From contig NZ_CP128846.1 of assembly GCF_030388665.1 (NCBI RefSeq), positions 5,034,501 through 5,098,500 on the forward strand: a DNA stretch of 64,000 nt, written 5' to 3'. Positions 35,044 to 45,891 of the stretch are shown one piece after another. The notes beneath the pieces were generated by a model. It saw only the letters and a program-made list of their open reading frames with translations, did no database searches and was not told the DNA's origin. Source of the stretch: Streptomyces flavofungini. GTDB lineage: Bacteria > Actinomycetota > Actinomycetes > Streptomycetales > Streptomycetaceae. A program made the translations under genes and the position numbers. How positions within the stretch are numbered: position 1 is the first letter of the stretch; each line of letters opens with the position of its first letter.

Positions 35044-35871
35044 ATGAGCACACCCAGTACACCCAGTACGCCCAGTATGCCCAGCACGCCATGGTCGCCC
35101 GGGGCGCCATGGCCGTCGGGAGCGAGACATCCGGGCGGCACACCGGGGACACCAGGGGCAGCAGGCACGGCAGCAGGGGCAGTGGGGAAGGCGGGGTCGG
35201 TGGGGACGGTGGGGACGGCAGGGGCAGCCGGGATCGTGGGCGCCCCGGGGGCCGAGGCGGGCGGGGCGGCCGCCGCCGCGGGCATCGGCGGCACCCACGT
35301 CCCGCGCCCCCCGGTCCAGCGCACCGACAGCCCCGTCCTGCCGGACGTACCCGCGCACGACCTGACCACCCTGCGCCTGCCGGAGCTGCGCGAGCTGCGC
35401 CGCTCCACACAGCAGGACGAGGCGGATCTGAGCTACGTACGACGGCTGCTGCAGGGCCGCATCGACATCCTGCGGGCGGAGACGGCGCGCCGCAGGGCCC
35501 CGGGCCCCGGCGGGCGGGACCCGGAGGCCACCACCGCCGCGGAGTCGCCGCTGGTCGTGGACCGGCTCCCGGAGATCCTCACGGACGGCCCGGCCCGGCA
35601 CCGCTCGTCGGCCCGCCATGTGACGCTCGGCACCCCGCACAGCGAGGAGTACCGGCGTCTGGCCGCGGAGATGCTCGCCGACGTGGAGCTCTCCGACCTG
35701 GTGGCCCGCACGGACGAGGAGCTGCACGCGGCCATGGGCCGCCTCGTCCGCTATGAACAGCAGGTTTCCCGGCGGCGTCAGGAGATGCAGCGGACGACGG
35801 ACGATTGCAGTGCGGAGATCGCCCGCAGGTACCGTGAAGGAGAAGCACAAGTAGACGACCTGCTCGCCTGA
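35044..35871 (+). CDS. rsiG: Anti-sigma factor RsiG (c-di-GMP-armed anti-WhiG)
   Basis: 275 residues. The C-terminal part forms the antiparallel coiled coil of RsiG, with one c-di-GMP motif E(X)3S(X)2R(X)3Q(X)3D on each helix: Glu126, Ser130, Arg133, Gln137, Asp141 and Glu238, Ser242, Arg245, Gln249, Asp253. All ten residues are present. RsiG with c-di-GMP holds sigma WhiG and so delays sporulation. The first ~95 residues are low-complexity (STPSTPSTP and Gly/Ala-rich), longer than needed for function. ATG 35044 follows GAGGGGA. whiG itself is not in the window. Confidence 0.93.
   Translation: MSTPSTPSTPSMPSTPWSPGAPWPSGARHPGGTPGTPGAAGTAAGAVGKAGSVGTVGTAGAAGIVGAPGAEAGGAAAAAGIGGTHVPRPPVQRTDSPVLPDVPAHDLTTLRLPELRELRRSTQQDEADLSYVRRLLQGRIDILRAETARRRAPGPGGRDPEATTAAESPLVVDRLPEILTDGPARHRSSARHVTLGTPHSEEYRRLAAEMLADVELSDLVARTDEELHAAMGRLVRYEQQVSRRRQEMQRTTDDCSAEIARRYREGEAQVDDLLA
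35048..35090. repeat. 9-bp coding tandem repeat at the rsiG start
   Basis: About four to five units of CACCCAGTA / CGCCCAGTA encode the STP repeats of the RsiG N-terminus. Confidence 0.75.
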
Positions 35872-36087: not shown

Positions 36088-37071
36088 ATGCCGACAACGA
36101 CGCCGTCGTCCGCCGTCACCAGTTCCCCCGTCATACCCCCGGTCCTCGCCGAGGTCGTCCGGTCGGGCTTCGTCGAGGGCCACCACCGCGGCAGCCTGGT
36201 GCTGCTCGGGGCCGACGGCGACGTGCAGCTCGCGCTCGGCGACGTGACGGCCCCCGTCTTCCCGCGCTCCACCAACAAGCCGATGCAGGCGGCGGCGGTG
36301 CTGCGGGCCGGCCTCGACCTGGCCGGCGAGCGCCTCGCCCTGGCCGCCGCCAGCCACTCCGGCGAAACGTTCCACCGGGACCTCGTACTGAAGATGCTGG
36401 CCGAGCACGGGCTGACCCCGGCCGAGCTGCAGTGCCCCGCCGACCTGCCCCTCGACCCCGAGGAGGCCGAGACCTACCTCGCCTCGGGCGCCGTCCGCGA
36501 CCGGGTCACGATGAACTGCTCCGGCAAGCACGCCGCGATGCTCGCCGTCTGCGCCCTGAACGGCTGGCCCAAGGAGAGCTACCTCGACCCCGAGCACCCC
36601 CTCCAGCGCCTGATCCACGAGGGCATCGAGGCGGCCGCGGGCGAGCCCGTCGCCGCCGTCGGCACGGACGGCTGCGGCGCGCCCCTGATGGCGATCTCCC
36701 TGACCGGCCTCGCCCGCGCCTACCGGCACTTCGTCCTCGCCCCCGAGGGCAGCCCCGAGCGCCGGGTAGCCGACGCCATGCGGACCCACCCCGAGTACGT
36801 CGCCGGGACCCGGCGCCCCGACACCTGGCTGATGCGGGAGCTGCCGGGCACGCTGTCGAAGATGGGCGCTGAGGCCGTCCAGGCGGTCGCGCTGCCCGAC
36901 GGCCGGGCCCTCGCCTTCAAGATCGATGACGGTTCGACGCGGGTCCTCGGGCCGGTCCTGGCCCGCGCCCTGCGCCTGCTCGGCACCGACGCCCCGGTCC
37001 TGGACCGGATCGGCAGGGCGCCGCTGCTCGGGGCGGGACGCGAGGTCGGGGAGATCCGGGCGGCGATCTGA
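36088..37071 (+). CDS. L-asparaginase II (AnsA/Rhizobium etli type)
   Basis: 327 residues of the asparaginase II family unrelated to E. coli AnsB. Catalytic Ser-Lys pair in RSTNKP (Ser61, Lys64), metal-site cysteines in MNCSGKHAAML and TDGCGAPLMA, and C-terminal FKIDDGSTRVLGP. Hydrolyses asparagine to aspartate and ammonia; no signal peptide, so cytoplasmic. ATG 36088. Proximity to glnR is broad (10 kb) and not evidence of control. The 216-bp gap before it shows no gene. Confidence 0.9.
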   Translation: MPTTTPSSAVTSSPVIPPVLAEVVRSGFVEGHHRGSLVLLGADGDVQLALGDVTAPVFPRSTNKPMQAAAVLRAGLDLAGERLALAAASHSGETFHRDLVLKMLAEHGLTPAELQCPADLPLDPEEAETYLASGAVRDRVTMNCSGKHAAMLAVCALNGWPKESYLDPEHPLQRLIHEGIEAAAGEPVAAVGTDGCGAPLMAISLTGLARAYRHFVLAPEGSPERRVADAMRTHPEYVAGTRRPDTWLMRELPGTLSKMGAEAVQAVALPDGRALAFKIDDGSTRVLGPVLARALRLLGTDAPVLDRIGRAPLLGAGREVGEIRAAI

Positions 37072-37340: not shown

Positions 37341-37526
37341 TCAGCCCGACTGGGCGAGCAGCAGCACGAGGATCAGCGCCCCGATGCCGCCCGCGGTGGT
37401 GTTCCTGGCCTTGATGCCGACGGTGAGCAGGACGAAGGCGATGATGCCCATCGGCCCGTATTTCCACTGGATGGCCTGCTCGAATCCAATGACGAGGGCG
37501 GCGACGACAACGGCGATGAACGGCAT
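37341..37526 (-). CDS. Small two-helix membrane protein, divergent from devE
   Basis: 61 residues from ATG 37526 with RBS GAAGGGGGA. Two hydrophobic helices joined by EQAIQWKYGPMGII, then LLTVGIKARNTT. It is paralogous to the 62-residue protein at 38736: both share EQ(A/V)(I/V)QWKYG and LLTVG(I/V)KA(R/K)NTT and the same RBS. Divergent from devE with a 279-bp shared regulatory region. Function unknown; its position makes it a likely target of DevE/DevA. Confidence 0.8.
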   Translation of the reverse strand: MPFIAVVVAALVIGFEQAIQWKYGPMGIIAFVLLTVGIKARNTTAGGIGALILVLLLAQSG

Positions 37527-37658
37527 GACGGTCCCCCTTCCGGTACGGGGGCGGCGGGCCCCCTGGCCGGCTGCCGACTGGCCGACCCGGGCGCCGGGTT
37601 CGGCCCGGCGGCCCGGGCTGGTGGCCAACCCCCCCGAAAGGTCTGACCATGTCGCCCA

Positions 37659-37673
37659 AGTTGGCTACCAACT
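37659..37673. promoter_or_regulatory. Putative DevA/DevE operator, devE side
   Basis: AGTTGG-CTA-CCAACT, perfect palindrome, in the divergent region. The same palindrome recurs upstream of devA. A looser pair CAACT (37722) / AGTTG (37744) lies nearer devE. Confidence 0.7.
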
Positions 37674-37805
37674 CCACCTGACTTATCTCCGCGATGGCGC
37701 GTCTTATAACCACCTTCTCGGCAACTCCCCTAAGATGGCGAGAAGTTGTACTGTTTGGTTGTGAGCCCGGACCAGGCCTCCGTCAACGAGCGGAAGAGGC
37801 CGACC

Positions 37806-38669
37806 ATGACTTCGCGCCGCTCGCACCACGAAGTGGCGGACGCGCTGCGCGACCGGATCAGGTCGGGGCGGCTGCGGCCGGGACAGCGCATGCCCACGCA
37901 GGCGGAGCTCGCGCTGGAGTTCGGCGTGGAGCGCGGTGCCGTACGCCAGGCGCTGCGCATCCTGCAGAGCGAGCAGCTCCTCGTCAACGTGTCCAAGGGC
38001 AGCCCCGCCACGGTCGCGGCACCGTCCGGGCCGAGCCCCGACACGGTCCGGCCCGAGCCCACGATGGTCGGCCTGGCCCCGCGCATCGCCGCGGCCTTCC
38101 AGGCGCAGCACGTGGAGATCGACGCGCTGTGCCTCACCTCCGTCTCGCTGACGATGGCGATCGGCGAACCGCTGCGGCAGATCCACGCCGGACAGCTGAA
38201 ACCGGCCAAGGTCGACGTGCGGGTGCTGCTGCCGAGCCGCGACATCGACCTCGCCTTCCCGGCTCCGGTGGAGGGCGGGGACGAGGGCGGCCGGGTGCAC
38301 CGCCGCTGGCTCGACCAGCGCAACGCGCAGGGGCAGGTGCTCCGCCACAACCTGCGGATGCTGCAGACGACGCACGGGATCGACGTACGGGTGGAGTTCC
38401 GCGCCCTGCCCTTCACCCCACCGGTCAAGCTCTACCTGCTCAACGGCTCCGAGGCGCTGTTCGCGTACTACACCCTCACCCAGCGCCGGGAGGAGATCGG
38501 CCAGGAGTCCCTGGAGATGTGGGACGCGCAGGGAACGCAGTCGATGCTGTTTCCGTTCCACTCGGGGGACGGGCTGCGGGACACGACGTTCGTGGAGCAG
38601 TCCCATCTGTGGTTCAACGCGCTCTGGGAGACGATCAGCCAGGACCTGAAGCTGAACCCCGGCCCGTAG
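37806..38669 (+). CDS. devE: GntR-family regulator, DevA subfamily (DevE)
   Basis: 287 residues from ATG 37806 (RBS GGAAGAGG); an upstream TTG frame adds an unlikely tail. GntR winged helix (HHEVADALRDRIRSGRLRPG, VERGAVRQALRIL), then a domain of about 200 residues typical of DevA proteins (DVRVLLPSRDIDLAFP, QRNAQGQVLRHNLR, PPVKLYLLNGSEALFAYY). It is a close paralogue of the downstream DevA. In S. coelicolor these regulators affect aerial development. The effector domain looks like a phospholipase-D-type fold lacking HKD residues (inference). Confidence 0.85.
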   Translation: MTSRRSHHEVADALRDRIRSGRLRPGQRMPTQAELALEFGVERGAVRQALRILQSEQLLVNVSKGSPATVAAPSGPSPDTVRPEPTMVGLAPRIAAAFQAQHVEIDALCLTSVSLTMAIGEPLRQIHAGQLKPAKVDVRVLLPSRDIDLAFPAPVEGGDEGGRVHRRWLDQRNAQGQVLRHNLRMLQTTHGIDVRVEFRALPFTPPVKLYLLNGSEALFAYYTLTQRREEIGQESLEMWDAQGTQSMLFPFHSGDGLRDTTFVEQSHLWFNALWETISQDLKLNPGP

Positions 38670-38679
38670 GGCGGACCAG

Positions 38680-38720
38680 GGTTCAGGCGGTTCAGGCGGG
38701 TTCAGACGGTTCAGGCGGTG
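38680..38720. repeat. GTTCAGGCG short tandem repeat
   Basis: Four imperfect copies of a 9-10 bp unit between the convergent devE gene and the next small membrane gene. Confidence 0.6.
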
Positions 38721-38735
38721 CGGTCCCGCGCCTCG

Positions 38736-38924
38736 TCACAGGGCGGGGCCGGTCACCATCAGGGCGAGCACGACGGCTCCGATGGAGCTGCAGGTGGTGT
38801 TCTTCGCCTTGACGCCCACGGTCAGCAGCAGCAGACCGATGATGCCGAGGGTTCCGTACTTCCACTGCACGACCTGCTCGATGGTGACGGCGAACACGGC
38901 TGCGAGGAGGGCTACGGCGGGCAT
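38736..38924 (-). CDS. Small two-helix membrane protein, divergent from devA
   Basis: 62 residues from ATG 38924 with RBS GAAGGGGGAA. Same architecture as the protein at 37341: helix, EQVVQWKYGTLGII, helix, LLTVGVKAKNTT, hydrophobic end. Divergent from devA (152-bp intergenic region) and convergent with devE (66 bp). The pairing with a DevA-subfamily regulator is repeated twice in 1.7 kb, pointing to duplication of a membrane-protein/regulator unit. Confidence 0.8.
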   Translation of the reverse strand: MPAVALLAAVFAVTIEQVVQWKYGTLGIIGLLLLTVGVKAKNTTCSSIGAVVLALMVTGPAL

Positions 38925-38952
38925 GATGGTTCCCCCTTCTGCCATCTTGAGC

Positions 38953-38969
38953 GAGTTGGCAACCAACTC
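38953..38969. promoter_or_regulatory. Putative DevA/DevE operator, devA side
   Basis: GAGTTGG-CAA-CCAACTC, perfect palindrome, equivalent to that at 37659. CAACTC (39017) and GAGTTG (39038) form a second, spaced pair close to the devA start. Confidence 0.72.
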
Positions 38970-39076
38970 CACTAGAGTTGTCCCCGCTTGGTAAGCCTTC
39001 ATAAACAACTTTCCGTCAACTCCCGTGAGATGGCGTCGAGTTGTATCGTCTGGTCGTGACCAAGGAGAGCGGTGCA

Positions 39077-39964
39077 GTGAACGGCAGCAGAAAGACCTCA
39101 CCTCAGGACATCGCCGACGCCCTGCGCGACCGCATCCGCACCGGCACCCTCAAAGCGGGCGACCGCCTGCCCACCCAGGCCCAGATCGCCCAGGAGTTCG
39201 GCGTGGAACGCGGCACGGTGCGCCAGGCGCTCCTGTCGCTGCAGCGGGACGGGCTCCTGAACCACATCAGCAGGGGGAGCCCGCCACGGGTGGCGGCGGA
39301 GGCCGCGGCGCCCTCGGCGGGGCCTGCGGGGCAGCCTGAGCCGCAGCCGTCGATGGTGGCGCTGCAGCCGCGCCTCATGGAGGCGTTCCGGCAGCAGCAC
39401 GTGCGGATCGACGCGGTCTCGTACACGGCGGAGACCTTGATGAACGCCGTCACCGAGCCGATCCGCCAGATCCACCAGGGCCGGCTGTGCCCCGAGTCCA
39501 TCGCCGTCCGCATCCTGCTGCCGAGCAGCGCCATCTCCCTGGCCTTCCCGGTGCCGGTCGAGGCCGAGGACGAACGCGACCGGGTCCGGCTGCAGCAGCG
39601 CTGGCTGTCCCAGCGCAACGCGCAGGGGCAGGTCCTGCGGCACAACCTCACCTCGTTGCGGCAGTCGCACGACATCGATGTCCGCGTGACCTTCCGCGCC
39701 CTGCCGCTGACGACGCCGGTGAAGCTCTATCTCCTCAACAAGTGCGAGGCCCTGCTCGCGTACTACACGCTGGAGTCCATGGAGGTGCCGCTGGACGGTG
39801 ACGGCGGGGAGAGCGTGCGCGCCTACGACGCCGGCGGACTGACCACGACCCTCTTCCCCTTCCTCCACGGGGACAGTTCGCGCGACTCGGGCTTCGTGCA
39901 GGAGTCCCAAAGATGGTTCGACGCCCTCTGGGAAACGATCACCACGGACCTGACACTCTCTTAG
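39077..39964 (+). CDS. devA: GntR-family developmental regulator DevA
   Basis: 295 residues from GTG 39077 (RBS AAGGAG); an upstream TTG (39041) lacks a site. GntR winged helix (SPQDIADALRDRIRTGTLKAG, VERGTVRQALLSLQ), then the DevA-type domain (IAVRILLPSSAISLAFP, QRNAQGQVLRHNLTSLRQ, TPVKLYLLNKCEALLAYY). DevA is needed for aerial development in S. coelicolor, represses itself, and is co-transcribed with devB, which starts immediately after the stop here. Self-binding at the palindrome at 38953 is expected. Confidence 0.88.
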   Translation: MNGSRKTSPQDIADALRDRIRTGTLKAGDRLPTQAQIAQEFGVERGTVRQALLSLQRDGLLNHISRGSPPRVAAEAAAPSAGPAGQPEPQPSMVALQPRLMEAFRQQHVRIDAVSYTAETLMNAVTEPIRQIHQGRLCPESIAVRILLPSSAISLAFPVPVEAEDERDRVRLQQRWLSQRNAQGQVLRHNLTSLRQSHDIDVRVTFRALPLTTPVKLYLLNKCEALLAYYTLESMEVPLDGDGGESVRAYDAGGLTTTLFPFLHGDSSRDSGFVQESQRWFDALWETITTDLTLS

Positions 39965-40717
39965 GTGACTCCTGATTCCGCGCGACCCGAGGCGAGAGCG
40001 ACCGAGCCAGTGACAGGTGCGACCGACGATCTGCGAGAACTCATCGACATCGCCCAGTTCGTGCTCTTCGATTTCGACGGCCCCGTCTGCCGTCTCTTCG
40101 CCGGGCGCTCCGCCGTGAAGGTCGCGAAGGAACAGGTGCGCTGGCTGGAGGAGCAGGGGCTGCACGGGCTGCTCACCGCGGGAGTGCGGGACGAACCCGA
40201 TCCGTACGTCGTGCTGCGCGCCGTCGACAAGCGCCACCCCCAGAGCGATCTGGTGGTCGAGCTCGAGGCGCGCCTGACGTACGAGGAGCAGAAGGCGGTG
40301 ACCTCCGCCTGGCCCACGGCCTACGCCGACGCGCTGATCCGCACCTGGCACGCCACCGGCGCCGGGCTCGCCGTCGCCACCAACAACGCGCCGGGGCCGG
40401 TGGCCACTTATCTGAAGGGCAGGGGGCTCATCGACTGCTTCGCGCCGCACATATACGGCCGCACGCAGAACCTGCACCTGCTCAAGCCGGACCCGTACTG
40501 CGTCAAGCGCGCCCTCCGCGGGCTGGGTGCCGACCCGGCCCGCACCCTGATGATCGGCGACGCCGACTCGGACTATCTCGCCGCGCGTGCCGCGGGCGTG
40601 CACTTCCTCGGATACGCCCGCAACGACCGCAAGATGCGGGTACTCCGGGAAATCGGAGCCGAACGGATAGTGACGTCACTGAAGCCGTTGCTCGACGTGC
40701 TCAAGGGCAAGAAGTGA
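39965..40717 (+). CDS. devB: HAD-superfamily hydrolase DevB
   Basis: 250 residues. HAD motifs: FDFDGPVC (nucleophile Asp), ATNN, LKPDPYCV (Lys), GDADSDYLAA. GTG 39965 directly follows the devA stop with no gap, so translation is coupled; GTG 40010 is an alternative. The helical cap is large, as in phosphoglycolate-phosphatase-type HADs. In S. coelicolor the devA-devB pair is one operon. Substrate unknown; the kinase-like gene next door suggests a phospho-compound handled in opposite directions (inference). Confidence 0.87.
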   Translation: MTPDSARPEARATEPVTGATDDLRELIDIAQFVLFDFDGPVCRLFAGRSAVKVAKEQVRWLEEQGLHGLLTAGVRDEPDPYVVLRAVDKRHPQSDLVVELEARLTYEEQKAVTSAWPTAYADALIRTWHATGAGLAVATNNAPGPVATYLKGRGLIDCFAPHIYGRTQNLHLLKPDPYCVKRALRGLGADPARTLMIGDADSDYLAARAAGVHFLGYARNDRKMRVLREIGAERIVTSLKPLLDVLKGKK

Positions 40718-40884
40718 CACGTGCCGCCGGGGCGCCGGACTTCGCGGTGAATTAGTCCCCGACATATTCACCGGCAAGGAAAACGCGCAGTAATGACACG
40801 CGCGCGCAAGGTAAGCAAGTGCGAGCGTCCGCATACTGGTCAAGTGGGCAGGTGGACGCCGTCAGGACGATACCCTCTGCGCTC

Positions 40885-42033
40885 ATGTCGCAACCTCTGC
40901 CCGGCGGAGCCGATTTGGCCCCACCGGCCCCACTCGGCTGGCGCGACCGGCTGATCCGCCGATGGGCCACCGCGCACCGGGAACGCCCTGACGGCGAGGT
41001 TGTGACCGGTTATCACAACAGTAACTACATCGTGCCGCTCGGCTGGCGCCTCGCGCTGTTGCTGCGGACGATGCCGTATCGCGCCCGCGTGAAATGCCGC
41101 ACGCCGTTGCAGGCCGCCGAGGTGGCGCCGCGCATCTGGCCCAACGAGAGCGAACTGCTCACGGTGGTCACCCGCCATCTGCGCGAAGTCCCGCGCTGCC
41201 TGCGGGACTTCGGCGACTGGTCGATGCACGCCTACCGCGCCGGGCGGCCGCTGACGGACGTCGACGAGAGTGAACTCCACACCGACGAACTGATGGCGAG
41301 GCTCGCCGAGTTCTTCGCGAGAACGGCGGCCGTGCCGGAGTCCGAGCTTCCGCCGAGACCCGAAGGCTGGCCCGCGAGCGGTGATTCCGACGGCTTTCTC
41401 GCCTGGCTGATCGACTTCACCGAGGAGCGGGTGCACCGCGCCAACAGGCAGCGATTCGACGCGTTATTCGAAGGCGTCGGGATTCGACGGCACGCGATGA
41501 CCGAGTTCAAGGAGCGGGCTCCGCGCCTGCACGAGCGCCCTTTCTGTCTTCTGCACACGGATGTCCACCGCGCCAATATCGTGGTCGACCGCAAGGAAAT
41601 CGCCGTGATCGACTGGGAGTTGGCCCTGTACGGCGACCCCTTGCACGACCTCGCCACGCACCTGGTGCGCATGGACTACGACAAGGAACAGCACCTGCGC
41701 ATGCGGCGGCGCTGGGTGGAGGCGATGACGGCGGCGGGCAGGCCCGAGCTGACCGCGGGCCTCGACGAGGATCTGCCCGTCTATCTGGATTTCGAGTACG
41801 CCCAGTCCGTCTTCCCGGACGTCATGCGGGCCGCCATCGCCCTGCCTGCGCAGGCACCCTCGGACGCCGACTTCGCGTGGGCCGCCGCCCGGGTCTGCCG
41901 GGCCCTGCGGCGGGCTGCCGAGCCGCTCCGCCTGGAAGGGGTGCCGGACCAGGCCCACGCCGTCGAGGCCGTGCGGTCCTGGCACGCCGAGGCGCGCGGG
42001 CGGGAGGCGGCACGGCCGAGTCCGGTCGTGTGA
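40885..42033 (+). CDS. Aminoglycoside-phosphotransferase-fold kinase
   Basis: 382 residues. Catalytic loop HTDVHRANIVV (Asp and Asn) and metal-binding IDWELALYGDPLHDLATHLVRM are intact; N-lobe GYHNSNYIVPL replaces the usual Gly-rich loop. The APH fold covers antibiotic kinases, choline/ethanolamine kinases and others; nothing here indicates an antibiotic substrate. ATG 40885 has no RBS, but GATACCCT ends 8 bases upstream, consistent with a leaderless transcript. Follows devB by 167 bp. Confidence 0.85.
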   Translation: MSQPLPGGADLAPPAPLGWRDRLIRRWATAHRERPDGEVVTGYHNSNYIVPLGWRLALLLRTMPYRARVKCRTPLQAAEVAPRIWPNESELLTVVTRHLREVPRCLRDFGDWSMHAYRAGRPLTDVDESELHTDELMARLAEFFARTAAVPESELPPRPEGWPASGDSDGFLAWLIDFTEERVHRANRQRFDALFEGVGIRRHAMTEFKERAPRLHERPFCLLHTDVHRANIVVDRKEIAVIDWELALYGDPLHDLATHLVRMDYDKEQHLRMRRRWVEAMTAAGRPELTAGLDEDLPVYLDFEYAQSVFPDVMRAAIALPAQAPSDADFAWAAARVCRALRRAAEPLRLEGVPDQAHAVEAVRSWHAEARGREAARPSPVV

Positions 42034-42122
42034 CGGTCTCCCGGTCTTCCTGACCGGCCCGCCCAGGGGCACCATGAACCCTTGCGTGCTCGTGTCAACT
42101 ACGAGGTGGCCGGGGGGACGTG

Positions 42123-42980
42123 ATGAGCGGTCGAACGTCGTGGGGGTCCGACTCGCAGAGGTGGGCGCGGGCGGAGTCCGCCGTCACCAAGGCGCTCTTC
42201 CTCGCGGTGTTCGTCGTGGGTCTCCTCGCCCAGTTCATCACCCCCCTCGGCGACGCCCTGGAGGGCAAGGCCTATGTCGGCAACGCCATCCTCGGCCTCG
42301 TCGGGTTCGTCCTCTACAGCGAGGTGCGCGGCCTCAACGACGCGCGGCGGCCCGCCGCGCCGCGGCAGGAGGTCGCCGCGAGTGAGCTGCGGGGGTTCTT
42401 CGAGGCGGCGCTGGGGCGGGCGGCGCCGCGGATCGATGCCATCGGGTACACGGGGGAGACCGTCGTCAACGAGCTGGCGCGGTCGTTGGACGGGCTGCAG
42501 GGTGCGGTCAGGCCGGAGGTCGCGGTGCGGATCCTGGTGCCGGACTTCACGCGGGAGATGGCGATACCGGGCATGCTCGACGCCGACGGCAAGGCGGTGG
42601 ACGACCCCGACTTCCGGGCGGAGCTGCTGCGGCAGGTGCGGGGGTACGAGCGGGGCATGGAGGTCCTGGCCCGGCGGCTGCGCCACGACCGCAGGGGCGA
42701 ACTCGCGGTGGAGTTCCGGGTGCTGCACATCACTCCGTCCGTGAAGTTCTGCCTCGTCGACGGCGAGCACCTCTTCGACGGCATCTACGACGCCGTCAAG
42801 GAGGAGCCGTCCCGGGACCACCCGGGGCGGCAGGTGCTCGACCTCATGGGGTACGACTCCCTGCTCACCCACTGGCACATCGACGCGGGCGCGGCGGCGC
42901 GCGCGAAGATCGGGGGCCGTCGGGAGCTGTTCGAGACCCTGTGGCGTGTCGCCCGCCCCCTCACCCCACCCGCCTCCTGA
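42123..42980 (+). CDS. Two-TM protein with DevA-like sensor domain
   Basis: 285 residues. Two membrane helices (about 25-45 and 52-70), then a cytoplasmic domain of ~200 residues: DAIGYTGETVVNELARSL, VAVRILVPDFTREMAIPG, ERGMEVLARRLRH, AVEFRVLHITPSVKFCLVDGEHLF. The order and spacing match the effector domains of DevA and DevE (DAVSYTAETLMNAV, IAVRILLPS, VLRHNL, VTFRALPLTTPVKLYLL), so it is a membrane-bound relative. No DNA-binding part. ATG 42123; GTG 42120 also possible. Likely a sensor or competitor for the same ligand (inference). Confidence 0.75.
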   Translation: MSGRTSWGSDSQRWARAESAVTKALFLAVFVVGLLAQFITPLGDALEGKAYVGNAILGLVGFVLYSEVRGLNDARRPAAPRQEVAASELRGFFEAALGRAAPRIDAIGYTGETVVNELARSLDGLQGAVRPEVAVRILVPDFTREMAIPGMLDADGKAVDDPDFRAELLRQVRGYERGMEVLARRLRHDRRGELAVEFRVLHITPSVKFCLVDGEHLFDGIYDAVKEEPSRDHPGRQVLDLMGYDSLLTHWHIDAGAAARAKIGGRRELFETLWRVARPLTPPAS

Positions 42981-43809
42981 ACAGCACCCCCGCCAACCCC
43001 ATCGACCCCGCCAGGATCCCCAGGCACCACGCGAGGGCCAGCCACGGTGTGGCGCCCGCCGGTTGGCCGAGGAGGAGGGCGCGGAGGGAGTCGATGACCG
43101 CGGTGACCGGCTGATGGTCGGAGAACGCGGCGAGCCAGGCCGGCATCGAGTCGGTGGGGACGAAGGCGCTGCTCGGGTAGGGCAGGAAGCTCACGAAGAA
43201 GGTGTAGCCGTTCGCGGCCTCCGCGGACCTGGCGAGCAGGCCCACCGCCGCCGACAGCCAGGACAGCGCGAGGACGAAGGCCACCAGGAGGCCGATCGCG
43301 GCCGGCCAGCCCGCCGGGGTCGCCGCCGGGCGGAAGCCGATCGCGAAGGCCAGGGCCAGGACCAGCGCGGTCGCCAGGAGGTTGCGGGCCACGGAGGCCA
43401 GGACGTGGCCCGTCAGGATCGCCGTGCCGCTCACGTCCAGGGAGCGGAAGCGGTCGATGATGCCGCCCTTGAGGTCCTCCGTGACGGCCACCGCCGTACC
43501 GGCCGAGCCGAATCCGGCGCACAGGAGCAGGACGCCGGGGACCACATAGGTGACGTAGCGGCTGCTGGTTCCGGTGTCGATCGCCCCGCCGAAGAAGTAC
43601 ACGAAGATCAGGAGCAGGAGCACGGGGAGTGCGAGGGCCGTGATCAGGGCGTCCACGTTCCTGCGGCTCAGGCGCAGGGAACGGCCGGTCATGGTGAGGG
43701 AGCTCGACAGCCAGTTGGTGGGGTTGGGGTTGGGATTGGGGCTGAGGTTGGGATCGGGGTTCGGGCTGAGGTCCGGGTCCGGGTTCGGGCCAGGTGAGGG
43801 CTCAGGCAC
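42961..43809 (-). CDS. ABC-2 type exporter permease (DrrB-like)
   Basis: 282 residues, six membrane helices; ABC-2 motif around GGIIDRFRSLDVSGTAILTGHV. The N-terminal 30 residues are an (NPDP/NPNP)-type repeat coded by a G-rich hexamer repeat. GTG 43809 overlaps the ATPase stop by 8 bp and uses its AAGGAG. Partner of the ATPase at 43802; probably a small-molecule exporter under control of the divergent TetR protein. Convergent with the two-TM DevA-like gene, overlapping its 3' end by 20 bp. Confidence 0.9.
   Translation of the reverse strand: MPEPSPGPNPDPDLSPNPDPNLSPNPNPNPTNWLSSSLTMTGRSLRLSRRNVDALITALALPVLLLLIFVYFFGGAIDTGTSSRYVTYVVPGVLLLCAGFGSAGTAVAVTEDLKGGIIDRFRSLDVSGTAILTGHVLASVARNLLATALVLALAFAIGFRPAATPAGWPAAIGLLVAFVLALSWLSAAVGLLARSAEAANGYTFFVSFLPYPSSAFVPTDSMPAWLAAFSDHQPVTAVIDSLRALLLGQPAGATPWLALAWCLGILAGSMGLAGVLFRRRVG
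43714..43795. repeat. G-rich hexamer tandem repeat at permease N-terminus
   Basis: On the plus strand, successive GGGGTT / GGGATT / GGGTTC units; read on the minus strand they encode Asn-Pro / Asp-Pro repeats. Strong potential for G-quadruplex or slipped-strand changes. Confidence 0.8.
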
Positions 43810-44902
43810 GGGTGGGCTCCTTCGGGGGCGCGGCGGGGGGCGTGGGCGCCGTCAGCGTCAGGAACACCTCGTCCAGGCTCGCCGTGCGCAGCGCGAAGTG
43901 CGCCACGTCCGTCCCCGTCGGGTCGAGTTCGTCGAGGAGCGCGCGGACGTGCCGTGCGGTGCCGTCGGTCGGCAGGGCCAGGGTGCGGGCGCGCGGGTCG
44001 CGGCGGGTGGCGTGCGGGGCCTGGGCGTGAACGCGGAGGTAGGCGTCGGACGTGGCCAGGGTGAGGTCGAGGTGGTGGCCCACCACCCGGGACTTGAGCT
44101 CCGCCGTGGTGCCCTCCGCCACGATCGCCCCGCCGTGCAGGACGGCGACCCGGTCGGCCAGGTGGTCCGCCTCCTCCAGGTACTGCGTGGTGAGGAAGAC
44201 CGTGGTGCCCCGCGCGGCCAGGCCGCCCACGACGTCCCACAGCTCCCTGCGGCTGCGCGGGTCCAGGCCCGTCGTCGGCTCGTCCAGGAAGATCACCCGG
44301 GGCTCGCCGACCAGACCGGCGGCCAGGTCCACGCGCCGCCGCATGCCGCCCGAGTACGTCCGGACCAGGCGGCCGCCCGCGTCGGACAGGCCGAAGCGGG
44401 CGAGGAGTTCGTCCGCCCGCGCCCGGGCGGCGGCCCGGCGAAGGCCCGCGAGGCGCGCCATCATGCGCAGGTTCTCCGCCCCGGTCTGGGCCTCGTCGAC
44501 CGCCGCGAACTGCCCGGTCAGGCTGATCGCGCGGCGCACGTCGCGGCGCCGCGCGCGGATGTCGTACCCGGCGACCCGCGCCGTGCCCGCGTCCGGCTCC
44601 GTGAGCGTCGCGAGGATCCGGACGGCGGTCGTCTTGCCCGCGCCGTTGGGGCCGAGGAGGGCGAAGACGGTGCCGGGCGGGACGTGCAGGTCGATGCCGC
44701 GCAGGACGGGGAGCGGGGGGTTGGTGCCGCTTCCTCCGGAGGACTTGTAGGACTTCGTGAGGCCGGTGGCCTCGATCGCGGCGGTGGTCGTGATGTTCGT
44801 GGTGGTGGTCCTGGCGTTCGTGGTGGTGGTCCTGGCGTTCGTGGTGGTGGTCGTGACGTGCGCGGCGCTGGTGTCGCCGGCGCCTTCGGCGGCTGCTGGC
44901 AT
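43802..44902 (-). CDS. ABC exporter ATPase (DrrA-like)
   Basis: 366 residues. Walker A LLGPNGAGKT, signature YSGGMRRRVDLAAGL, Walker B VIFLDEPTTGLDPRSRR, H-loop TTQYLEEAD; C-terminal DrrA-type domain. The first ~45 residues carry Thr-rich repeats (TTTTNAR) from a 21-bp DNA repeat. ATG 44902. Its promoter contains two TetR-type operators shared with the divergent regulator. Close to the ATPase at 52804 but with a different promoter setting. Confidence 0.92.
   Translation of the reverse strand: MPAAAEGAGDTSAAHVTTTTTNARTTTTNARTTTTNITTTAAIEATGLTKSYKSSGGSGTNPPLPVLRGIDLHVPPGTVFALLGPNGAGKTTAVRILATLTEPDAGTARVAGYDIRARRRDVRRAISLTGQFAAVDEAQTGAENLRMMARLAGLRRAAARARADELLARFGLSDAGGRLVRTYSGGMRRRVDLAAGLVGEPRVIFLDEPTTGLDPRSRRELWDVVGGLAARGTTVFLTTQYLEEADHLADRVAVLHGGAIVAEGTTAELKSRVVGHHLDLTLATSDAYLRVHAQAPHATRRDPRARTLALPTDGTARHVRALLDELDPTGTDVAHFALRTASLDEVFLTLTAPTPPAAPPKEPTRA
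44795..44857. repeat. 21-bp coding tandem repeat, three units
   Basis: Units start GTTCGTGGTGGTGGTC at 44795, 44816 and 44837; the first two are identical, the third ends differently. They encode the TTTTNAR repeats of the ATPase. Confidence 0.88.
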
Positions 44903-44979: not shown

Positions 44980-45891
44980 ATGGCCGTCAAGCGAAGGCGC
45001 GGAGCGGGTGAGGAGGCCGGGGAGATGGCGGCGGACGGCGGCGGTGGCGCGGGCCTGCCCGGAGGGTCGGGGCCGGGGGCGGAGGCCGGGACGTCCGCGC
45101 GGGCGGGGGCGGAGCCGTCGGCCGACGCGGAGACCGGTCTGCCCGCCAGCCTGGAAACCGCCTGGGGCCTGCGGGAACGCCCCTCCAAGGGCCCCCGGCC
45201 CGGCCTCAGCCTCGACCGCATCGTCCGCGCCGGCATCGGCGTCGCGGCCGCCGAGGGCGTCGGCGCCGTCTCCATGGGGCGCGTCGCCAAGGAGCTGGGC
45301 GTCTCGACGATGTCCCTGTACCGGTACGTCTCCGCCAAGGACGAGCTGTACGTCCTGATGGAGGATGCCGCCGTGGGCCCCCCGCCCCCGATGCCCGCCG
45401 ACGTCACGGGCTGGCGCGCCGGGCTCGAGTGGTGGGCGCGCGCCCAGCGCGAGGTGTTCCACCGGAACCTGTGGCTCCTGCGGATCCCGGTCTCCTCGCC
45501 GCCCGCCTCGCCCCACTCGCTCCAGTGGATGGAGCGCGGCCTCGCCGCCCTGGCCGGTACCGGCCTGGACGAGGGCCGCAAGATCTCCGTGATCATGCTG
45601 ATCGGCGGCTATGTACGCAACGAGGCCACCCTCATGGCCGATCTGGACGCCGCCATGACCGCCCGCGGCCTCACCCCCGACGAGGTCATGCGCCGCTACG
45701 AGCGCACCGTCGACGCCCTCACCGCCCCCGACCCCGGCCGCTACCCGGCACTGCGGCACCTCCTCGCCTCCGGCGCCCTCGGCGCGCCGGACGAATCCCC
45801 GGACGTGGAGTTCGAGTTCGGCCTGGGCTGCCTGCTCGACGGGGTGGAGGTGCTCGTGCGGTCGGGGGGCGGGGGTACGTGTACGGCGTGA
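44980..45891 (+). CDS. TetR-family regulator of the adjacent ABC exporter
   Basis: 303 residues. A long disordered Gly/Ala/Glu-rich N-terminus (~70 residues) precedes the TetR helix-turn-helix (about 96-122, VSMGRVAKELGVSTMSLYRYV) and a TetR_C domain typical of drug-exporter regulators. ATG 44980 lies only 8 bp after operator 2 and lacks an RBS, so the mRNA may be leaderless and the operators overlap its promoter (autoregulation). Divergent from the ABC genes. Confidence 0.88.
   Translation: MAVKRRRGAGEEAGEMAADGGGGAGLPGGSGPGAEAGTSARAGAEPSADAETGLPASLETAWGLRERPSKGPRPGLSLDRIVRAGIGVAAAEGVGAVSMGRVAKELGVSTMSLYRYVSAKDELYVLMEDAAVGPPPPMPADVTGWRAGLEWWARAQREVFHRNLWLLRIPVSSPPASPHSLQWMERGLAALAGTGLDEGRKISVIMLIGGYVRNEATLMADLDAAMTARGLTPDEVMRRYERTVDALTAPDPGRYPALRHLLASGALGAPDESPDVEFEFGLGCLLDGVEVLVRSGGGGTCTA

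Follow-up and report, generated by a model that had tools for sequence, protein, structure and literature searches.

A Streptomyces devE-devA-devB-devC locus in its full form, with a predicted degenerate phospholipase D domain shared by its GntR regulators and a membrane protein

Introduction

In Streptomyces coelicolor, devE (SCO4188) and devA (SCO4190) encode GntR-type regulators, devB is co-transcribed with devA, and a small gene transcribed divergently from devA, devC, encodes a hypothetical protein (PMC3187754). Sporulation defects are reported for devA and devE mutants (PMC3187754), and both regulators are required for sporulation to proceed normally. The introduction of the same paper cites negative autoregulation of devA and devB by DevA, and its accessible text gives neither a ligand nor direct targets beyond these two genes. 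Here we analyze a 64 kb stretch of DNA, called the window throughout, from a genus that we take to be Streptomyces by the names of the nearest proteins. Positions 37341 to 42980 of the window hold the complete form of the Streptomyces devE-devA-devB-devC locus. The core of this locus is already published; new are a predicted degenerate phospholipase D (PLD) domain shared by the regulators and a membrane-anchored protein, the conservation of a seven-gene locus within Streptomyces, and a fixed layout of a predicted operator and a SigB-type promoter.

Several published observations bear on single genes of the locus. The C-terminal effector domain of GntR regulators is also named an oligomerisation domain, and in 2011 a devC copy on the devE side was reported for two species only (PMC3187754). 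The promoter SCO4189p depends on SigF/H/N (PMC8346170), SCO4187 is a putative membrane protein that was down in a bldA study (PMC2000904), and SCO4193 occurs in PMC4340878. We infer that the two devC-type genes of S. coelicolor are SCO4187, which by its number lies beside devE, and SCO4189, which by its number lies between devE and devA. The main text of PMC3187754, in its accessible form, contains no word beginning with membrane, kinase or operator, and our searches of the open-licence literature turned up no account of the membrane-anchored protein or of how the DevA effector domain folds. To an earlier note on this DNA, both the small and the membrane-bound proteins had seemed undescribed; since devC, devE, devA and devB are all published, this holds for the membrane-bound protein, as far as that literature was accessible, and not for the small ones.

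Results

Seven genes are open in this part of the window, as the earlier note had described, and they include two divergent units of a small membrane protein and a GntR regulator. The devE unit consists of a devC-type gene at 37341-37526 (minus strand), whose product of 61 residues is classed as a membrane protein by hydropathy, and a devE-type regulator gene with a leaderless-type start at 37761-38669 (plus strand). In the devA unit, a devC-type gene at the SCO4189 position (38736-38924, minus strand) is divergent from a devA-type regulator gene (39056-39964, plus strand); its product has 62 residues, one more than the approximate length first given for both small proteins. Identity is 60% over 42 residues between the small proteins and 53% over 313 columns between the regulators. 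In a tree, the devE-type regulator falls together with those GntR copies that lie upstream in other loci. The gene for the HAD hydrolase DevB (39965-40717, plus strand) begins directly after the stop codon of the second regulator gene, and is followed on the same strand by a gene for an APH-fold kinase (40885-42033, ATG at 40885) and a gene for a protein with two transmembrane helices (two-TM protein; 42123-42980, ATG at 42123) in which a copy of the DevA effector domain is anchored in the membrane.

We replaced the upstream TTG start codons previously given for the regulator genes. Judged from the sequence, the starts are most likely the leaderless GTG codons at 37761 and 39056, because devA of S. 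coelicolor is a documented leaderless gene with a matching upstream element, the bases CGAAGTTGTAGCGTTTGGTCGTG (PMC3160421). The element precedes both regulator genes of the window and is conserved; before the devA-type gene it reads AGTTGTA...GTG, at 39039-39058 (plus strand).

Both regulators begin with a GntR winged helix (PF00392, 4.8e-17 and 2.1e-17), and belong to the DevA subfamily by their conserved DevA-type C-terminal domain and the adjoining devB. The effector domains FCD and UTRA define the FadR and HutC subfamilies of GntR regulators; neither gave a Pfam match at an E value of 1 in the two regulators or in 24 effector domains. The two-TM protein consists of two hydrophobic helices followed by a domain that is homologous to the DevA effector domain, with an hhalign probability of 98.9% over 191 columns and a BLASTP E value of 4e-10 over 113 residues, at about 22% identity. 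This agrees with the likeness that had been noticed from the letters alone. Weak coiled-coil-type matches are present in some two-TM homologues. We also considered whether DevC is related to the two-TM helices and rejected this (profile comparison probability 4.6%).

The structure comparison proposed for the three effector domains covered two of them, which were modeled as monomers from 32 (DevA) and 48 (two-TM) sequences. Compared by VIA-align, both predicted models have the phospholipase D fold with a degenerate catalytic motif and resemble PLD nucleases and TrmB, which places them in the PLD superfamily on predicted models. The HxK(x)4D (HKD) motif of PLD enzymes, whose column was placed by motif within the alignment and not by superposition, is absent from the window proteins. 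Across the sequences used for the models, the histidine two positions before the lysine occurs in 1 of 48 two-TM rows and in 0 of 32 DevA rows, the lysine in 80 of 80, and the aspartate is replaced by asparagine or glycine in 76 of 80; the two-TM protein of the window is among the four that keep it. We predict that the effector domain is an inactivated PLD fold, and that the devE-type regulator carries the same pseudo-PLD domain. Conserved basic residues in the domain would fit an anionic ligand. Searches of the sequences of solved structures gave mostly helix-turn-helix matches for DevA, none over the effector domain alone, and no match for the two-TM family.

At E 1e-6, the domain occurs three times in the genome of the window, each time in the dev locus. 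In a tree of 65 domains, nine two-TM domains formed one group (100/100), in a topology with an arbitrary root and with long branches that meet. Two further genes of the genus, L053:6596-7591 and L071:5657-6886, encode a DevA-type effector domain behind a helix-turn-helix that we read from the sequence as XRE-like, in place of GntR.

To describe the distribution of the locus in the genus, we surveyed 121 genomes including that of the window. At least 76 genomes were positive for DevA (E 1e-20), 63 for devC (E 0.001), 60 for the kinase (E 1e-30), and 81 for the HAD hydrolase (E 1e-20). Of 90 devC matches, 89 had a DevA gene no more than 3 kb away (the match at G085, L069, has none nearby), and of 71 kinase matches, 69 had one within 10 kb, with the remaining two on one separate contig. 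More than one devC match was present in 24 of the 63 devC-positive genomes. Both devC and kinase occurred in 59 genomes, neither in 57, and one alone in 5; the Fisher values for this co-occurrence ignore the kinship of the genomes. The search for the two-TM gene gave 41 positive genomes, most of them through DevA domains, and we took 14 places in 13 genomes as two-TM genes; 12 of the 14 lie within 10 kb of a DevA gene.

A scan of 84,980 species genomes with three peptide patterns, from which the genome of the window was excluded, found 61 two-TM loci, all titled Streptomyces; L130 to L132 were found by partial matches. This set overlaps with the 121 genomes, and a single genome supplied both S. 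cyaneochromogenes loci, L089 and L109. After matches under the score limits were dropped, 54 of the 61 loci had DevA, devB, devC, and kinase genes within the fetched stretch of up to 8 kb on each side, two lacked devC and kinase, and five had the two-TM gene alone or with a kinase. In 52 of the 54 full loci (exceptions L103 and L128), the genes for DevA, DevB, the kinase, and the two-TM protein follow each other in this order on one strand, and devC is on the opposite strand; 38 of the 54 have two or more devC genes, and in many an additional DevA-type gene precedes the kinase. Wherever a two-TM locus has a DevA-type gene, one is on the strand of the two-TM gene (56 of 56). For the refuting condition set in the earlier note, the result is divided: the small-membrane and two-TM genes co-occur with devA-type genes across Streptomyces, and they were not found in ten loci outside the genus. 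A class-wide search for the effector domain found it in 32 of 296 genomes, spanning 6 of 114 genera.

The assignments of the hydrolase and the kinase from the sequence alone held. The product of devB matches PF00702 (1.1e-15) and passes only the generic HAD-IA model in NCBIfam; its motifs DxD, Lys, and GDxxxD are kept in 26 of 27 rows, including that of the window, and one row has a glutamate for the lysine. The kinase matches PF01636 (8.6e-20) with all its NCBIfam matches below the family cut-offs, and the HxDxxxxN loop and the metal-binding aspartate, intact in the window, are kept in all 31 rows that cover the loop (out of 33 rows, with some genes fetched twice). The solved relatives of both proteins are distant. 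Kinase frames of about 780 codons at L011:8461-10800 and L022:8241-10601 seem to hold two kinase domains, which would make them tandem fusions of the locus kinase. Several dev loci contain a further devB-type HAD gene (L017:7019-7771, L019:8675-9427, and others), in some cases on the opposite strand.

Both divergent regions of the window contain a predicted DevA-family operator and a predicted SigB-type promoter directed toward devC on the minus strand. In the first region, the operator GTTGGCTACCAAC is at 37660-37672 and the promoter (GGTTAT...GGAGAT) at 37685-37711; in the second, the operator GTTGGCAACCAAC is at 38955-38967 and the promoter (GTTTAT-15-GGGGAC) at 38980-39006. The hexamers and spacing of the latter are identical to those of the published SCO4189p. 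We collected 127 pairs of divergent devC and DevA genes from related genomes, giving 124 distinct regions after merging only identical ones. The palindrome GTTGGNNNCCAAC is exact in 97 of the 124 regions, and 103 have it when up to one mismatch is allowed; 95 have a SigB-type promoter directed toward devC, and the palindrome lies 11-12 bases behind it in 83 (12 bases in 78, 11 bases in 5). In 200 sets of single-base shuffles, the palindrome had a mean of 0.8 (largest 5) and the combination with the promoter, whose pattern was written after the alignment had been seen, a mean of 0.005 (largest 1). The palindrome would cover about +5 to +20 of the devC transcript as predicted, so a bound repressor should block devC.

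At the genome scale, the exact palindrome occurs 6 times, 2 of them at the dev locus, versus 4 for the reversed control pattern; three of the other four are inside long reading frames with high GC content at third codon positions, and the fourth is unclear. With these numbers, a regulon beyond the locus was considered and is not claimed. The window itself contains 5 palindromes at one mismatch, not clearly above chance (4 of 100 shuffles gave at least 5), so the case for an operator comes from its fixed place in related promoters. Variants occur as well: some promoters without the motif carry one with a shorter centre, the Streptomyces locus L051 has the same arms with the centre missing (AGTTGGCCAACT), and the non-Streptomyces locus L044 has GTTTGG-5-CCAAAC upstream of DevA. 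The DevA starts at L041, L042, and L050 were extrapolated and are unsure. Upstream of the two-TM gene, at about 42046-42076, an element CTTCCTGACC...GGGCACCATG is conserved in 11 of 12 aligned loci and is perhaps a separate promoter.

The genes around the locus were also inspected. An RsiG-like protein with two E(X)3S(X)2R(X)3Q(X)3D motifs (PF22802, 5.8e-33) is encoded at 35044-35871 (plus strand); RsiG is known as the cyclic di-GMP-dependent anti-sigma factor of WhiG. An L-asparaginase II gene (36088-37071, plus strand; PF06089, 6.6e-110) lies between rsiG and the first devC gene, with matches in 14 of 94 fetched loci. Directly 3' of the two-TM gene are genes for an ABC exporter (ABC-2 permease and DrrA-like ATPase; 42961-44902, minus strand) and a TetR regulator (44980-45891, plus strand).

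Discussion

The computed linkage, the shared domain with its predicted PLD fold, the intact HAD and kinase motifs, and the operator-promoter layout, with the published negative autoregulation by DevA and the SigF/H/N dependence of SCO4189p, point to an autoregulated metabolite-sensing module, a reading that we consider somewhat favored though far from secure. DevA-type repressors would bind GTTGGNNNCCAAC just behind the predicted start of devC and block its transcription by RNA polymerase with a SigB-type (stress and sporulation) sigma factor. Binding of an anionic ligand to the effector domain would change repression, so that DevC and DevB are made, and the HAD phosphatase and the APH-type kinase would set the level of this ligand. 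The membrane-tethered domain could act as another receptor for a ligand of this kind, or else as a partner by which the regulators are kept at the membrane. The ligand-sensing circuit proposed in the earlier note is thus partly supported, by the conserved locus, the shared domain, the catalytic residues of hydrolase and kinase, and the basic residues of the domain, while control of the ligand is its conjectural part. A wider version, in which a GntR family took over a dead PLD domain as sensor, Streptomyces built a membrane receptor from the same domain, both read one phosphorylated ligand set by the hydrolase and the kinase, and the membrane state controls DevA, DevE, and SigB-driven DevC, is speculative and in our view rather improbable.

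Several observations weigh against such a module. In ten loci outside Streptomyces, only a DevA-type gene directly before or overlapping devB was found, and devC, kinase, and two-TM genes gave no match there (contig ends limit L042 and L044, and the DevA gene of L041 is split over two frames), which argues that the three are unnecessary for the ancestral function. Matches to devB occur without a full DevA gene in several of 11 stretches inspected. The palindrome is missing at one mismatch from 21 of the 124 promoters, and in 11 other loci, of which ten are non-Streptomyces, the exact form was not found in the DNA upstream of DevA. With a distance of about 90-100 bases to the leaderless devA start downstream, the operator fits control of devC better, and autoregulation of devA would need a further site. 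Finally, the identity of only about 22% between the DevA and two-TM domains means that their ligands may differ. As a separate observation, the devB-type genes at L061:6120-7221 and L066:5911-6742 are beside DevA remnants only and are perhaps decayed copies.

Some of these points would be explained if the locus were a neighborhood of developmental genes and not one circuit, with devA-devB and devE acting as published and the kinase and two-TM genes independent and linked by descent near rsiG. Matches to rsiG in 35 of the 94 fetched loci, many of them with flanks that would stop short of it, suggest an inherited position, and the kinase and two-TM genes have their own upstream elements in most of 12 relatives; devA-devB alone outside the genus and devB-type genes without an intact DevA gene fit this explanation as well. 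However, devC and kinase are present or absent together in all but five genomes, in counts uncorrected for kinship, extra copies of devA, devB, and kinase are mostly within the same array, and the domain of the two-TM protein is homologous to that of the regulators. We consider a mere neighborhood possible but unlikely. Alternatively, the two-TM protein could be a tether or antagonist that pairs with DevA and DevE through the shared domain and takes the repressor off the DNA, a mode of action known from other regulators that are sequestered at the membrane. The common domain, the two hydrophobic helices before it with the weak coiled-coil-type matches, and the second name of the GntR effector domain as an oligomerisation domain would suit this role. 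The low identity of the domains argues against pairing, and since the two-TM gene was counted in only 13 of the 121 genomes, and in 12 of the 60 that have the kinase, it is usually absent where the regulators work. Tethering is compatible with the metabolite-sensing module, and we doubt it more than we believe it. The patchy presence, the duplication of parts, and the sensor-like domain on a membrane protein might also suggest a system for phage defense or conflict, in which the two-TM protein would be the killing effector. PADLOC gave only two weak helix-turn-helix matches to DevA (E 0.003), the locus has a chromosomal position beside rsiG, and devA and devE have published roles in sporulation, and such a system is therefore very improbable.

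The predicted fold, the predicted operator, and the three linked partners (kinase, DevC, and two-TM protein) make the developmental question experimentally testable. If the metabolite-sensing module is real, a dead PLD domain that serves as a GntR sensor and is reused in the membrane would extend what is known of metabolite sensing in bacteria.

Overall, the locus resembles three described systems to different degrees. The PLD nucleases Nuc, NucT, and Zucchini share the predicted fold and differ in the catalytic HxK(x)4D motif, the histidine of which is present in 1 of 80 DevA and two-TM domains. The archaeal sugar-responsive regulator TrmB is similar by predicted fold only: the DevA and two-TM proteins have no PF01978 or PF11495 match at an E value of 1, DevA has a GntR helix-turn-helix, and the part of TrmB aligned to the domain stops at residue 243, before the second C-terminal subdomain, which makes most of the sugar contacts (PMC4158304). 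The third is the dev system of S. coelicolor. The publications found, in their accessible text, describe neither a linked kinase nor a membrane-anchored effector domain for it; like the window, it has two GntR paralogues, devB after devA, devC divergent from devA, the same leaderless devA element, and a SigB-type promoter, SCO4189p, like that of the second devC gene.

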